Part shown: positions 84 through 35,503 of the stretch, in pieces
Position numbering within the stretch: position 1 is the stretch's first letter
How the letters are laid out: each line of letters opens with the position of its first letter
IMG/VR virus record: IMGVR_UViG_3300011116_000528
Coordinates: 1 to 40,890 of that record
Source of the DNA: a virus
Length of the DNA stretch: 40,890 bases
Strand: one strand, 5' to 3'
Notes under the pieces: model-generated
What the model was told of the DNA's origin: nothing
Databases searched by the model: none
The model's input: only the letters and a program-made list of their open reading frames with translations
Translations under genes and position numbers: made by a program

Positions 84-186
84 AATTGGTTGGTTTTATT
101 AATCTTGAAACTTTGCCATGCGTTCTGCAAGCAACTCCTGAATCCTGTCATTATACGCTTTGTCCTTCGCCGCTGGGCTTGTCGTT
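1..186. repeat. Left copy of the terminal direct repeat (wraps to 40705-40890)
   Basis: Bases 1-186 match 40705-40890 with mismatches only at positions 6, 15, 18, 59 and 60; from 61 on the match is exact to the window end. Such an overlap is the usual mark of a circular or circularly permuted phage contig. The mismatches sit in coding sequence, which fits population variation between related phages better than a fixed terminal repeat, although the latter cannot be excluded. Confidence 0.9.
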
Positions 187-1061
187 TGGTACGCGGTAAA
201 TATCTTTGAGGCTTGGGAGTATAAATTTGATATGGTGAAATTTGCCCTCAGCCATTTGTCATTCAATGACCACGCGGCTTGGATAAACACCTTCAATGCC
301 TCAATGCTATTGCCCTGCTTATCTATTTTGTCAATGTAACGCATGAGGTTTCCCATTTGCCCCGCGTCTTTTGGCATCATTATGTAATGTCCGTTCTGGT
401 CGGTTGGGTATGCTGCACCAGATAACGATTCAAAGGTTTGGCAAAACACGGAAAAGGCGGCGTACGTGGGGGAGGGTTGGCGGTCGGCTCGGGGTTCATT
501 TTCTTTTTCTTTTTTTCGCCTGCTTTTTTCTTTTTCTTTTTCAACAAGGGAAACAATAGTAAACGGGTTTACTTTGGGGCTTTGGACATTTGGATAATCA
601 TTTGTTTCAACTTTTGTAAAGTGCGAAAATTCCGAAGGATTTTCAATACTTTGTTCAAAGTCTATATTTGTTATAATCTTTCTTTGTTCTAAGTCTTTAT
701 TTATTAGTGCCGACTTTTCCCGTGTCGGTTTTTCTCCGTTGCGGATTTTTACCGTGTCGGCTTTTTTACCACTCGGTGTAAAATTCAGGGTATAATCGTA
801 ACTATCAAATTTACCCGTTTCCCTTCTTTGTTCCCGATGAAGGTAACCCGTTGTCAAAAGTTCTTCAATGTATTTTCTCAATGTATCCTTTGTGTATCCA
901 AGTTCCTTTGCCATTGCGCCTTGATAAAATTTCCAATCGTCTGGCATGGAAGCCATGTAACAGAAAATGAAACGGGCACGGTCGCTCAGGCTTTTGTTTC
1001 GGATAATGTCATTGGGGATAATGGTAAAATTATCCTTGATTTTGTTATTTAACTTATTCAT
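99..1061 (-). CDS. Winged-helix replication initiator-like protein
   Basis: This 320-residue protein probably binds the phage origin and starts replication. Residues 10-95 resemble the winged helix-turn-helix of phage and plasmid initiators: a short lead-in ending IPNDII, then LSDRARFIF, a helix pair with AKELGYTKDTLRKYIEEL, and a wing with YLHREQRR. A charged, low-complexity linker rich in Arg, Lys and Glu follows around 170-195, and a helical C-terminal domain (about 200-310) may recruit a partner, as in DnaD/DnaT-like organisers. Its 5' leader carries the kissing-loop RNA at 1072-1168. The next gene (40053-40787, across the junction) starts 15 bases after its stop, so the two are likely co-expressed. 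A general transcription factor role is possible but less likely given the absence of any other initiator. Confidence 0.7.
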   Translation of the reverse strand: MNKLNNKIKDNFTIIPNDIIRNKSLSDRARFIFCYMASMPDDWKFYQGAMAKELGYTKDTLRKYIEELLTTGYLHREQRRETGKFDSYDYTLNFTPSGKKADTVKIRNGEKPTREKSALINKDLEQRKIITNIDFEQSIENPSEFSHFTKVETNDYPNVQSPKVNPFTIVSLVEKEKEKSRRKKEKENEPRADRQPSPTYAAFSVFCQTFESLSGAAYPTDQNGHYIMMPKDAGQMGNLMRYIDKIDKQGNSIEALKVFIQAAWSLNDKWLRANFTISNLYSQASKIFTAYQTTSPAAKDKAYNDRIQELLAERMAKFQD

Positions 1062-1071
1062 AAAAATGTAT

Positions 1072-1168
1072 AAAAAAACCCAGCAGGTGCAAGGCTACTG
1101 GGTTAGTTGAAACAATGCGGATATTGTCCCGAAGTTCTTTTGAATGACTTGCACCTCGTTCAAAAGAA
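1072..1168 (-). ncRNA. Kissing-loop leader RNA, copy 1, before the initiator gene
   Basis: Read on the minus strand, the leader has three hairpins. Hairpin 1 is a perfect 10-bp stem (1159-1168 with 1135-1144) with a 14-nt loop. Hairpin 2 is ACAAT/ATTGT (1112-1116, 1123-1127). Hairpin 3 pairs 1098-1104 with 1077-1083 and is followed by seven U, as an intrinsic terminator, ten bases before the ATG at 1061. Nine loop bases of hairpin 3 (1085-1093, AGGTGCAAG on the plus strand) are exactly complementary to loop bases of hairpin 1 (1148-1156). The same plan with different loop sequences occurs at 2863-2957. It may be an attenuator of the initiator gene or a short stand-alone RNA; the function is inferred. 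Confidence 0.65.
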
Positions 1169-1172
1169 TGAT

Positions 1173-1180
1173 TAAAGATA
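1173..1180 (-). promoter_or_regulatory. Promoter -7 box of leader RNA copy 1
   Basis: The minus strand reads TATCTTTA, one base from the Bacteroidota -7 consensus TAnnTTTG. It ends five bases before the first hairpin of the leader RNA, so a transcript would begin with that hairpin. The second leader copy has the same box in the same place with a perfect match (2965-2972). Confidence 0.5.
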
Positions 1181-1191
1181 AGGAAAAAAGT

Positions 1192-1620
1192 TTATTTATT
1201 TTTAGATTTTGGTATTTTATACCGAAAAAAAGAGTCAATATTAAAAATTAATCTTTTCTTATCTCCTCCTGTAATAAATTTTTTATCGTCGCCTAATGCT
1301 TCTAAAGTGAACATATTTTGATAAAACATATTTCTTTCTCCTTTCAAATCTATTTCGGGTTCAATTATTAATAAAAATGGAATCATTCCTGTAAGTCTTG
1401 CAATTTTCAATCTAAAGTTAAATTGATAAGGAGGTAAGCCATGACCATCAAATGGAGGCGCCTTAAATCTTTGTTGATGTTTAATTTCCCAAATATAAAT
1501 TTTACCATCTTTTTTATCCACACTTACTAAATCAATTTGACCAAATTGATGTTTACAATCTTTTAAAATCTGGCGAACAATTGCTTCTCCGTCAAAACCT
1601 TGTTTAAACTTATCGTCCAT
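1192..1620 (-). CDS. Putative PD-(D/E)XK nuclease, overlapping the methylase gene
   Basis: This 142-residue protein has the core of a PD-(D/E)XK nuclease: Glu12 in GEAIVRQIL, Asp30 in GQIDLVS, and the Glu45-Ile-Lys47 triad in IWEIKHQ, spaced as in restriction-like and VRR/Mrr-like folds. It probably cuts or nicks DNA. An alternative start at 1647 would add nine residues; 1620 is preferred because it gives a short 11-base overlap with the end of the ParB-methylase gene, typical of translational coupling. The arrangement suggests a methylase-nuclease pair, either a small restriction-modification-like system or a recombination or packaging nuclease. No specificity domain is visible, and the family cannot be named more closely. 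Confidence 0.55.
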   Translation of the reverse strand: MDDKFKQGFDGEAIVRQILKDCKHQFGQIDLVSVDKKDGKIYIWEIKHQQRFKAPPFDGHGLPPYQFNFRLKIARLTGMIPFLLIIEPEIDLKGERNMFYQNMFTLEALGDDKKFITGGDKKRLIFNIDSFFRYKIPKSKNK

Positions 1621-2857
1621 TGGGTAAATATTTTTCTTGTAATTCAATACCGTATGAATTACGGTTTATATTTTTGGCGGCTTTACAAGTACTGAAACTT
1701 CCAGCAAAAGGATCTAAAATATAATCACCTTCATTACTTGATTTTTTAATCAAATATTCTAATATATCCAAAGGCTTTTCGGTTGGGTGAGTTAAATTAT
1801 TTGGAGCAACTCGATTAAATCTTAAAATATCCCTATCTCTATTTCCGTTTAAATCTTTCCATGTTTCATTATACCCAAACAAAACAATGTCATAAGACCT
1901 GCCGTATGTTTTTAAGTCACCCATACCGATAACTTCCCTGTCCCAAATCAATATATTTTTAAGTTTAAAATACTTATTGAAAACTGGCTTTATTTTTTCC
2001 AGTTCGTTTGGATTCCCAAAAATATAAATGTGCGCATCGTCTTTTAAATGCTTTTTTGAAGCCTCGAATACTTTATCTAAAACAATCAAAGTATCTTCTA
2101 TTTTATCATTATCTATTTTGTCCCATTTGTTATCATAATCGAAACCGCTTTTAAAATCCATGCCATAAGGAGGGTCGCTTAAAAATAAACTTATTGGTTC
2201 AAATACATTATTATTTAAAATGTCAATGCTATTTCCAATAATAAACTTTGCCTTGTATTTTTCATCATGCAAAATCTCTTTATTAAATTCTTTTTTCTTT
2301 TCGATAAAATTAATTTCCTTCTCCTCCTTCTTAATTTCCTTAAATGCCTCGTTAATGCTTATTTGCCCAGTGCTTACCTTTGCCTTGATTTCAGGAGAGG
2401 CAAAGGCTTCAATCTTCTTTACCTTGCTTATCGTATCATGTCCGACGTTTGCAATTTTTGCAATTTCCTGCCGTGTTTCAATTTTTTGTTCAGCTGATTT
2501 CAGCGGAACAAAATCAGGTTTTCTTATTTGATTTTCCTTTGCCTTCGCCTTAAACACGTCTTCAAGTTGCAAGGCTAAAACGCTTCGTTGGTAATTGTTT
2601 AAATTCCTTCTCCCGAATTGGTTATTAATCATCCATTCCTTTACCGCGTTCATGTCGGCAAATTCCTTTTCCACGGTTTCAAAATCAATGTCGTACTCCG
2701 TTGCAATCCTGTACCTGTTGTGTCCATCAACCAAAATGCCGTTCCACGTCACCAATGGGTCGCGGATTCCCTCCTCCAGAATGTTACGTTCCAGTTGCTT
2801 AAATTCCTCACTTGTTAACGGTGGGATTAAGACTTCAAGTTCTTTTAATATTTGCAT
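1610..2857 (-). CDS. ParB-domain/DNA adenine-type methyltransferase fusion
   Basis: The 415-residue protein joins a ParB N-terminal-like domain (residues 1-110, key motif LVDGHNRYRIA at 42-52), a helix-turn-helix segment (about 128-148, EIAKIANVGHDTISK) and a beta-class DNA methyltransferase. Catalytic motif IV is SDPPYG (227-232) and the AdoMet-binding motif DPFAGSFST (382-390) comes after it, the beta-class order, with HPTEKP between. It probably methylates adenine N6 or cytosine N4 in phage or host DNA. The ATG at 2857 is chosen because it begins the ParB domain; an upstream start at 2923 would have to be translated through the leader RNA hairpin. The next gene, a PD-(D/E)XK nuclease, overlaps its end. 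Confidence 0.85.
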   Translation of the reverse strand: MQILKELEVLIPPLTSEEFKQLERNILEEGIRDPLVTWNGILVDGHNRYRIATEYDIDFETVEKEFADMNAVKEWMINNQFGRRNLNNYQRSVLALQLEDVFKAKAKENQIRKPDFVPLKSAEQKIETRQEIAKIANVGHDTISKVKKIEAFASPEIKAKVSTGQISINEAFKEIKKEEKEINFIEKKKEFNKEILHDEKYKAKFIIGNSIDILNNNVFEPISLFLSDPPYGMDFKSGFDYDNKWDKIDNDKIEDTLIVLDKVFEASKKHLKDDAHIYIFGNPNELEKIKPVFNKYFKLKNILIWDREVIGMGDLKTYGRSYDIVLFGYNETWKDLNGNRDRDILRFNRVAPNNLTHPTEKPLDILEYLIKKSSNEGDYILDPFAGSFSTCKAAKNINRNSYGIELQEKYLPNGR

Positions 2858-2862
2858 GATGT

Positions 2863-2957
2863 AAAAAAAAATGCCAACGAGTAGCAGTTCGTTGGCAAAG
2901 GTTAGAACAATGGTTTGTTCCAATTTCCTTTTGAATACCTGCTACGCCATTCAAAAG
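2863..2957 (-). ncRNA. Kissing-loop leader RNA, copy 2, before the ParB-methylase gene
   Basis: On the minus strand hairpin 1 pairs 2949-2957 with 2928-2936 (9 bp, 12-nt loop), hairpin 2 is GAACAA/TTGTTC (2915-2920 with 2905-2910, 4-nt loop), and hairpin 3 pairs 2889-2897 with 2872-2880 (9 bp, 8-nt loop) and runs straight into nine U, ending five bases before the start codon at 2857. Seven of the eight hairpin-3 loop bases (GTAGCAG, 2881-2887, plus strand) are complementary to hairpin-1 loop bases 2939-2945. Stem 3 and both loops differ wholly from copy 1 while keeping all pairings; the short GGTTAG and GAACAATG blocks are shared. This supports a selected RNA structure. Confidence 0.7.
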
Positions 2958-2964
2958 AATAATA

Positions 2965-2972
2965 CAAAGATA
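2965..2972 (-). promoter_or_regulatory. Promoter -7 box of leader RNA copy 2
   Basis: The minus strand reads TATCTTTG, a full match to the Bacteroidota TAnnTTTG box. It lies between the stop of the 42-residue gene at 2984 and the first leader hairpin, seven bases before that hairpin begins. The ParB-methylase gene is therefore likely to have its own promoter in addition to read-through from upstream. Confidence 0.6.
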
Positions 2973-24350: not shown

Positions 24351-27300
24351 GTGAAGAAATAAAACCAAAAAAGGAACGTAAGTTTTTAAAGGCATTAGGA
24401 AAAATCGGAGAGGTTTTGATTCAAGAACTTTTTTTCAGAGTAGGGAGCAATTTGATTCGAAAGATTGGAGGCAAAAAAACATTGCCTTCAATTCTTTTTT
24501 TATTCCTTTCCCTCAGCCTTTTCGCGCAATACCCAAACACATTAAACAAACAACGGCTTGGATTCCAGACCACAGCCGACGGGCTTGTTTGGCGTGGGGC
24601 ATTGTCCGACACGGCTTCCATTCAACCGATAAACAATCAAAACGCGTGGGTGATTCTTGATACGGTTAACCTTAAATTTTATACGTTTGATTTTACCTCC
24701 AATGTTTGGAACTTGGTCAACGGTGGAACAAGCGGTTTAACAATGCCATTTGATTCCATCACCTTCAACACGACAAAGAATGGCACGGTGGGTGTGGGAG
24801 AAGTAGAATACAATGATACACAGGGTTCTTTGATACAAGGGCTAAAAGGTGGTAACGTTACCAATGTCATTGGGCAACAATTACACCAACGCGTGAACAA
24901 CAGAACAGGTGCACCATTGGCAAAGGGTGACGTGGTTTATTTGGCAGGAAGTCAGGGCAATCGAATAACAGTGGCAAAAGGTTTAGCGGTAACGGATGCT
25001 TTTTCGGCTAACACTTTTGGTGTAGTGGCTGAAAACATTGCGGACAATCAAAGCGGTTTTATAATTACCGAAGGCTTAATAACAGGCTTAAATACCTCAG
25101 CCTTAACGGAAGATAGCGCGGTTTATTTATCGCCAACGGTGGCAGGTGCATTGACTTCAACAAAGCCACAAGCACCACAACACAGCGTATATATTGGCGT
25201 ATGTGTTAAAAGTAATAACGGTTCGGGGGAATTGTTTGTCAAAATTCGCAACGGGCAGGAATTGGATGAGCTTCACGATGTTCGGATAACCTCACCCGTT
25301 GACAGGGCTTCTTTGTATTATAAATCAAGTGAAAAACTTTGGCGCGACACAACGGCAGCCCTTTTGGTAAGTGACACGGCTTCGATGCTTGCTAACTATG
25401 CCACAAAAGCATACGCGGATACAACGGGAAGGTTATATGCAAGGCAGGATTATACCACAGGGGTAACATCTTCAACTTTAACATGGACACAAAGTGACAC
25501 TTTGATTCCTGGGGGAGTTACCGTCGTTCAAGTTTATCGTAACGGACAAATACTTTTGCCTTCGCAATACACGATACCAACTTCAACAAGCGTGGTAATT
25601 GCAGCTTCATCATTCAAAGTCAATGATAATTACACGGTTATTTTTCCGCGTGGTGGCGGTGCAGGAAGTGGTGGAGGATCGGGAAGTTTAACTTCTATTT
25701 CAGGAGGTACGGGAATCCTTGTTTCACCTGACCCAATCACAACAACGGGTACGGTTTCGGCTGACCTCAGTGTTTTAATGGAGTTAACAGATACGTCTTT
25801 ATTAAAGCTTTCATCAAGACTTGCAACAAAATTAAATACAAGTGACACGGCTTCGATGTTATCGAATTATAACACGCGTATAAATAGCAAATTAAATATA
25901 TCTGACACGGCTTCAATGCTTGCGCCTTACTTTCGAGATGCTGATACAAGTTTATTAAATCTTACCTCAAGGTTTGCATTAAAATTAAACGCAACCGATA
26001 CCGCTTCCCTTTCCAACAGGATAAACGCAAAGGGCAACGGCACGGTTACAAGTGTTGCCACGGGCTACGGATTAACAGGTGGAACAATTACCACGACAGG
26101 TACTTTGTTACTTGATTCAGCCGTTGTATTTTCGAGGATACGGGATTCAATTGTTGACGTGGCAATTGGGAATGATACCATAAAGATTTTAAAACAGGAA
26201 TATGCACCAGCTACTTCAAGCGTTTTAACTTGGACGGTAACATCAAAATTTCCCATCCAATCTAAGTCTTTTATTTTGGTGTTTAGAAATGGGCAGCTTC
26301 TTATAAATACTCAATACAATTTAACAGATACTAATAAAATTACCATTGTTTCCAACTCATTCAAATCAGGCGCTAATTACACGGTTGTTACGGTGTCGGG
26401 AATTGGTTCGGTTGGTACGGGTATATTTCCTAATCCCGTTTACCCTGAGGCAGGAATAGCGGTATCCACGGGCAGCGCTTGGGCTTCAAGCATTGCAAAT
26501 AATTCAAGCAATTGGAATGTTGCATTCAATGACAAAATAAACAATGCTGAGTTTTCAGGAACAACGACAAAGACGTTGACTTTAACCCAATATGACGGAG
26601 GTACATTTACGCCAACGTTTACCGACTTACAAGGGGTGACAGGCGTCACGGCAGGAACAGGGTTAACTGGTGGAACGATAACAACCACGGGCACGGTGGC
26701 AGTTGATTTTACCACGGTTGCACCGTTGGCAAATCCCACGTTTACAGGTACGGTTTCGGGAATAACGAAAATCATGGTAGGTTTGGGTAATGTGGATAAT
26801 ACTTCGGATGCTAATAAGCCCGTATCAACAACAACGCAAACGGCGTTGAATTTAAAGGTAAACATAAGCGACACGGCTTCCATGCTTACTCCTTATTTTC
26901 GAGATACTGACACAACTTCTTTAAATCTTACATCAAGATTTAACACAAAATTAAATTTATTGGACACTTCAAATATGTTGGTCCCATACCTTCGGAAAGC
27001 TGACACGACAAATATGTTATTACCTTACTTTCGAGATGCTGATACATCTCAATTAAACCTTACATCAAGATTTAACACAAAGCAAAACACGTTAAGCGGC
27101 ACGGGCTTTGTCAAAGCAAGTGGAATAAGTATAACGTATGATAATTCAAATTATCTCACAACAGGGGCAGCGGCATTAACTTATTTGCCATTGACAGGTG
27201 GAACATTGACGGGTAATTTAAGATTATCAAGTAGCGTTGGTACGCAATTAAACATAGATGCAAATGATAATAATTTAGAAAGTAGAATTACTTTTTCAAC

Positions 27301-33602: not shown

Positions 33603-33625
33603 AGGGCAGCTGGGGGTGCTGCCCT
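33603..33625 (-). terminator. Intrinsic terminator before the membrane protein gene
   Basis: AGGGCAGC and GCTGCCCT form an 8-bp stem with a 7-base loop. On the minus strand it is followed by AA and six T. It ends the message of 33643-34134 and lies 33 bases upstream of the start at 33570, so it could act as an attenuator as well as a terminator. Confidence 0.65.
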
Positions 33626-35112: not shown

Positions 35113-35132
35113 GGGCGGATTGGTTACCGCCC
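35113..35132 (-). terminator. Intrinsic terminator after the 72-residue gene
   Basis: GGGCGG and CCGCCC form a 6-bp GC stem with an 8-base loop; the minus strand continues AATTTTT. It ends the message of 35140-35358 and lies 29 bases before the glucosaminidase-like gene. Confidence 0.65.
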
Positions 35133-35376: not shown

Positions 35377-35445
35377 TTTTCAATACGTAAATTTAATATT
35401 AATTATTTGAATAAAAAAATATTTACAAAAATAAATTAAAAAAAA
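35377..35445 (-). promoter_or_regulatory. AT-rich promoter-like repeat, copy B
   Basis: This 69-base element is identical to 39935-40003 at 66 positions. On the minus strand it begins with eight T that also form the tail of a terminator, then TAAATATTTTTTTATTC and the box TAAATTTAC (plus 35387-35395). It stands 29 bases before the ATG at 35358. It probably acts as a combined terminator tail and promoter between units. Confidence 0.6.
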
Positions 35446-35469
35446 TGTCCGCATCGGTTGACACGGACA
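35446..35469 (-). terminator. Intrinsic terminator of the dcd-containing unit
   Basis: TGTCCG and CGGACA form a 6-bp stem with a 12-base loop, followed on the minus strand by eight T (35438-35445) shared with the repeat element. It closes the unit that includes the small genes 35504-36805. Confidence 0.65.
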
Positions 35470-35503
35470 CAGAAGAACACTTTAACAACTTACTACTTCA
35501 CAT

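Follow-up and report, generated by a model that had tools for sequence, protein, structure and literature searches.

A three-hairpin leader precedes the ParB-methylase gene

The window analysed here is the whole stretch of 40,890 nt of the IMG/VR virus record IMGVR_UViG_3300011116_000528. The minus strand of positions 2863-2972 carries, from 5′ to 3′, a -7 box of the Bacteroidota type, three hairpins (H1, H2 and H3), a run of nine U and then the ATG of a ParB-methylase gene. In Flavobacterium johnsoniae, the -7 box occupies -12 to -5 relative to the start (PMC6847099), and the transcription start was predicted from this spacing. The features are the following:

2965-2972, minus strand: -7 promoter box TATCTTTG, with the spacing measured in Flavobacterium johnsoniae
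2960, minus strand: predicted transcription start, 1 base before H1, from the -7 box spacing
2926-2959, minus strand: hairpin H1, RNA 5′ end, from folding; its stem covaries across homologues
2939-2945, minus strand: kissing arm in the H1 loop, GTAGCAG, Watson-Crick to the H3 loop
2902-2923, minus strand: hairpin H2, a spacer hairpin of 9 bp, from folding
2872-2897, minus strand: hairpin H3, terminator-like, 9 bp and an 8-nt loop, from folding; 9/9 stem pairs covary
2881-2887, minus strand: kissing arm in the H3 loop, CTGCTAC, complementary to the H1 loop
2863-2871, minus strand: U9 run, 3′ of H3, from the sequence
2857-2855, minus strand: ATG of the downstream gene, five bases past the U run, from the sequence
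1610-2857, minus strand: ParB-like N-terminal part and N6_N4 DNA methylase, 415 aa, by domain assignment

The leader folds at -35.1 kcal/mol, compared to -18.1 ± 3.1 kcal/mol for shuffled sequences (z = -5.5, with none of 200 shuffles as low), and the three hairpins without their flanks give z = -7.1. The initial annotation had described this architecture, and H3 at 2872-2897, the nine U, the -7 box and the ATG five bases after the U run are all present. The seven-base pairing that it proposed between the loops (2881-2887 with 2939-2945) consists of seven Watson-Crick pairs. The spans given there for H1 (2928-2957) and H2 (2905-2920) correspond to the core of H1 and to a shorter core of H2 as delimited here.

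A second copy and other hairpins in the window

A search for the H1 stem pattern gave two occurrences in the window, with none expected. The second occurrence belongs to another leader (copy 1), which precedes a replication initiator gene:

1070-1180, minus strand: leader copy 1, same plan as the leader at 2863-2972, from the sequence
1173-1180, minus strand: copy 1 -7 box TATCTTTA; predicted start at 1168, from the -7 box spacing
1135-1168, minus strand: copy 1 H1, with kissing arm GTGCAAG at 1148-1154, from the sequence and the homologue model
1109-1130, minus strand: copy 1 H2, from the sequence
1077-1104, minus strand: copy 1 H3 followed by a T run, with kissing arm CTTGCAC at 1087-1093, from the sequence
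99-1061, minus strand: replication initiation protein with HTH_36, behind copy 1, by domain assignment

The loops of the two copies had been described as entirely different, and their kissing bases as sharing no sequence. The kissing words do differ, but both descriptions were overstated since GTAGCAG and GTGCAAG agree at 4/7 positions and the H1 stems are nearly the same.

We also searched the window generically for pairs of hairpins, the downstream one terminator-like, whose loops are complementary to each other. Both leaders were recovered together with sites at 24473 (plus strand) and 40021 (minus strand), as opposed to none in four shuffles. The latter two are AT-rich 6-mers; they were taken as chance matches and rejected as third kissing sites. 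Three terminator-like hairpins with T-rich tails (33603-33625, 35113-35132 and 35445-35470, minus strand) are located between same-strand genes and have no kissing partner, and could be useful as internal controls.

Two further observations were made near the leaders. The rep gene includes a pair of direct repeats of 26 nt at 32-nt spacing (708-765, plus-strand coordinates); they contain CCGTGTCGG and could be origin iterons within the replication initiator gene. The ParB-methylase gene is followed by a small ORF (1192-1647, minus strand) with no PHROG or Pfam match. A D...ExK pattern can be recognized by eye in its translation (QIDLV...IYIWEIKH), and it may encode a PD-(D/E)XK nuclease paired with the methylase.

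Homologues are found in uncultured phage contigs

Related contigs were collected by two pattern scans of IMG/VR and by protein searches with the rep protein and the ParB-methylase. A covariance model was built from 21 leaders on the H1 and H3 stems only, the kissing pair being left out; these seeds were picked partly by complementarity, while the 82 homologues were not. The model gave 196 matches in 140 sources including the window, which correspond to 82 distinct leaders on uncultured phage contigs. The phage is known from metagenomic contigs only. When 41 loci without a model match were searched for divergent leaders, one chance match was obtained.

No Rfam 15 family matched at its gathering threshold (27 bits for the best weak match, 60 needed), and named phages and plasmids gave chance matches only. 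Among the genome contigs examined for hosts by pattern scan, none of 25 matches had the architecture or a strong model score. No leader was detected at E 1e-6 in 395 Bacteroidota genomes, which is weak evidence because the filters were strict and few candidates were scored. We found no description of this leader RNA in the literature searched, most subscription journals lying outside that search. The promoter type, as sole basis, suggests a member of the Bacteroidota as host.

The H1 and H3 loops covary as a kissing pair

In all 82 leaders, the loops of H1 and H3 are Watson-Crick complements, as established by script for 80 of them and by eye for two that were mis-parsed (L198 and L250). Nineteen different kissing words are used. 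Complementarity between loops of leaders that carry different words was seen in only 4 of 6090 ordered pairs.

Covariation was assessed on 45 leaders trimmed to stems and loops and aligned without gaps. The kissing helix is paired in 315/315 cells. Changes of both partners affect six of its seven pairs and amount to 90 cells, and 9/9 pairs of the H3 stem covary; these counts come from related sequences and not from independent events. Despite this kinship, 19 words require at least 18 changes. For the structure as a whole, the observed measures were not reached in any of 500 shuffles, and when the partner columns were offset by 1-3 positions, pairing in the kiss fell to 33-50%. As regards a metabolite riboswitch, which would be marked by an unpaired, conserved ligand pocket and by downstream genes of related function, the only invariant columns of this alignment are paired ones. 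No G-U was present in the 315 kissing cells (alignment A5, columns 13-19 with 41-47), compared to dozens in the H3 stem; either wobble pairs are not tolerated or words are exchanged whole.

Compensatory swaps of the kiss could be followed among leaders that have the same H1 stem, H2 and linkers and carry GTGCAAG, GTGAAGG or GTGATAG. These leaders also vary in the H3 closing pair or in a few bases flanking the word in the H1 loop.

The initial annotation had argued for a selected structure from two copies, and had pointed to covariation among homologous leaders as the way to check it. This comparison on 82 distinct leaders strongly supports the proposal: the loop-loop pair covaries and the kiss is intact in every one. 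Since the pairing is kept in 82 versions while the letters change together, the structure is real, and it probably serves as a gene switch.

Promoter, hairpins and start codon form a fixed-register unit

A TANNTTT box is present in 82/82 leaders, and the start predicted from it falls 0-1 nt from the H1 base in 77/82. Downstream of H3, at least 5 T are found within 8 nt in 80/82 homologues, and the end of the H3 stem is separated from the start codon by a median of 15 nt (25-75% range, 14-17). These spacings define a unit of fixed register including promoter, RNA 5′ end, three hairpins and start codon, in which H3 is a putative terminator.

We looked for a conserved antisense promoter by a scan that covered the -7 box type. 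None was found: an antisense -7 box was present near 3/82 leaders, as opposed to 18 control regions. An antisense RNA partner was judged unlikely on this basis, which leaves the leader itself as the only obvious trans partner.

Two copies in one genome carry different words

The initial annotation had also suggested that differing loops would prevent cross-talk. Among two-copy contigs, the words do differ in 19/19 distinct combinations, but chance may account for this. From pooled word counts about 1.3 same-word matches are expected in 19, and the observed zero is not significant. The two sites use mostly different word sets that hardly overlap; a permutation test of the per-genome difference therefore has no power and was not used. 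In one genome, GTAGGAG and GTAGCAG co-occur with a single base between them. Independence of the two copies in one genome is plausible.

The leader precedes unrelated genes

Long contigs carry 0-2 leaders each. The genes behind them are varied and belong to several unrelated families. Typically, the leader stands in front of the replication initiator or one gene further upstream; the list includes replication initiators, ParB-like proteins with or without a methylase, methylases, HNH nuclease-helicases, HNH/AP2 and T5orf172 proteins and others, with a bias to the rep/ParB-methylase neighbourhood because many contigs were fetched via those proteins. Nothing in these results points to a ligand or signal, nor do the families of the downstream genes hint at one.

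Leaders with an identity of at least 88% formed 136 pairs, and in 68 of these the flanking DNA is unrelated both upstream and downstream. The L208 and L220 leaders, for instance, are identical over the compared stretch and have unrelated flanks. Such near-identical leaders in unrelated surroundings show that promoter and leader constitute a mobile cassette.

At the rep site of four contigs (L143, L175, L213 and L219), the replication initiators share a common C-terminal part and have exchanged N-terminal DNA-binding parts (MNKLNN, MEFSFN, MINIDT and MKNLLI), the exchange beginning at the leader. Directly behind two other leaders (L134, 7112-7220; L229, 669-776), proteins combining HNH and AP2 as in homing endonucleases are encoded; the assignment was obtained by Pfam for the L134 protein and by eye from similarity for L229.

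Possible modes of action

On balance, we lean towards a kiss-controlled attenuator, divided roughly evenly between a trans and a cis mode. It would be a promoter-proximal leader moved about by phages as a cassette. A host-type promoter sets the predicted start of the RNA at the foot of H1, and the H1 and H3 loops are selected for 7-bp pairing. H3 would act as an intrinsic terminator, such that a large part of transcription would yield only a leader RNA of ~95 nt, and expression of the downstream gene would depend entirely on read-through. The H1-H3 kiss would set the efficiency of termination at H3. Some observations count against this explanation. No antiterminator pairing was found conserved across the leaders, nor was any alternative fold of this kind (in 23/82, no upstream partner is available to the 5′ arm and loop of H3 once the 3′ arm is removed). 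The difference in words between copies of one genome is within chance. Moreover, the intergenic terminator-like hairpins without kissing partner indicate that terminators before genes are ordinary in this window.

A kiss within one RNA appears about as likely as one between two leaders. With median lengths of 12 bp for H1, 7 for the kiss and 10 for H3, a straight coaxial stack would measure ~81 Å, while the linkers (medians 3 and 4 nt) and the width of H2 reach ~70 Å. By these rough numbers from standard A-form values, the linkers are too short for a straight H1-kiss-H3 rod in 62/79 leaders. A hinge of ~60 degrees at H1, whose loop has unpaired bases, would make the kiss within one RNA possible. 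A double-kissing dimer would, as a rough estimate, bring the RNA ends together.

The sub-case of the attenuator without a trans step is possible though clearly short of even odds. Here the kiss within a single nascent RNA would hold or speed the terminator hairpin, and the signal would be a protein or a polymerase state reading H1/H2. The sequences of H1 and H2 are indeed kept beyond the need of pure structure, local concentration favours intramolecular pairing and the bend described above would suffice. The short linkers argue in the other direction, as does the negative correlation between rod and linker lengths, which is partly trivial and is the opposite of a spanning constraint. Word diversification is also left unexplained.

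In the trans mode, of which we are less certain, the kiss would be formed at least in part between two leader RNAs, each offering its H1 to the H3 of its partner, and the accumulated leader would sense its own dosage, so that each locus would need its own word. Such a self-sensing attenuator, in which the terminated and the nascent leader would join in a double kiss specific to their word and so provide dosage feedback on replication genes, is put forward tentatively, with a weight similar to that of the purely intramolecular form. If true, words would diversify like immunity groups, and loci, perhaps competing phages, would stay independent.

The unrelated flanks of half of the closely related leader pairs, L208 and L220 included, and the homing-type nuclease genes (HNH/AP2, T5orf172) behind some copies could also be accounted for by a PeSL-like cassette, in which promoter and strong terminator insulate modules and offer homology for their exchange, the kiss strengthening an always-on terminator. 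We regard this as rather improbable, since a terminator that is always active between promoter and ATG would shut off the gene behind it and the loop-loop selection would have no explanation. It and the kiss-controlled attenuator are not mutually exclusive.

An antiterminator of the HK022 put type, with 5′ hairpins binding RNA polymerase so as to pass H3 and later terminators, is unlikely. The hairpins do begin at +1, as putL is found just downstream of its promoter (PMC9378689), but 0-2 copies per long contig do not equip every early promoter, the H1 and loop sequences vary widely, and put consists of two hairpins without a kissing terminator. Translation control, where H3 and the U run would tune ribosome access to the start codon and not transcription, has equally little to recommend it, or slightly less. 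The tight distance from H3 to the start codon is in its favour, and structure near the start codon lowers initiation in Flavobacterium johnsoniae (PMC6847099); nevertheless, ~15 nt of U-rich, unstructured sequence separate the end of H3 from the start codon, and a G+C-rich stem followed by a U run is the signature of a terminator. Finally, an element acting as DNA, for instance through hairpins that form in single-stranded DNA and serve replication initiation close to the rep gene, is very improbable: many copies lie at or beside a replication initiator gene, but the promoter register, the polarity of H3 with its U run and the start-codon distance fit RNA.

Comparison with known systems

In plasmid pIP501, RNAIII induces attenuation of the repR mRNA (PMC4981023); to judge by the title of Heidrich and Brantl 2007, cited therein, two complementary loop pairs are needed. 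In the rep attenuators of pIP501 and pT181, leader hairpins and a terminator precede the replication initiator and loop-loop contact sets termination (PMC4981023, PMC5703833). Similarly, a terminator-like hairpin is located between promoter and rep gene in copy 1 and its homologues. The partner in the plasmids is a separately transcribed antisense RNA, whereas here both complementary loops belong to the same leader and no conserved antisense -7 box for an RNA across it was detected; in addition, many leader copies precede other genes.

In satellite phage P4, the leader's own CI RNA pairs with the leader and stops transcription of replication genes (PMC4825925). Processing of the transcript releases the CI RNA, whose pairing targets are seqA/seqC; in the present leader, both complementary stretches lie in hairpin loops, including that of the terminator-like hairpin itself.

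The PeSL cassettes of T4-like phages combine a promoter with a stem-loop in one motif and serve in the shuffling of modules, according to work cited in PMC4503421. A promoter and a stem-loop terminator motif, the terminator being recognized by sequence only, are likewise common to unrelated modules here. Instead of a T4-like myovirus with sigma-70 early promoters, the record is of 41 kb with a -7 box of the TANNTTTG type, in line with phages of ~40 kb genomes and Bacteroidota-type promoters. PeSLs are not known to have a conserved loop-loop pairing.

HK022 putRNA also places phage RNA hairpins at the transcript start, but its two hairpins bind polymerase and suppress termination, and no kissing terminator is described (PMC9378689). 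The put hairpins target the polymerase beta′ zinc domain; the present leader has three hairpins, the third terminator-like, and kissing loops.

Taken together, the pIP501/pT181 attenuators, P4 CI RNA, PeSL and put appear to be the closest working analogies, none of which matches the leader in all the defining features examined. The leader represents a structured RNA family without an Rfam match, with an unusually clean loop-loop covariation that includes a terminator-like hairpin. Its 19 natural kissing words offer a ready set for testing control of intrinsic termination by a distant hairpin, and are also suited to testing phage self-recognition by matching words. If the trans mode is true, it would be a phage counterpart of plasmid copy control that operates without an antisense gene.
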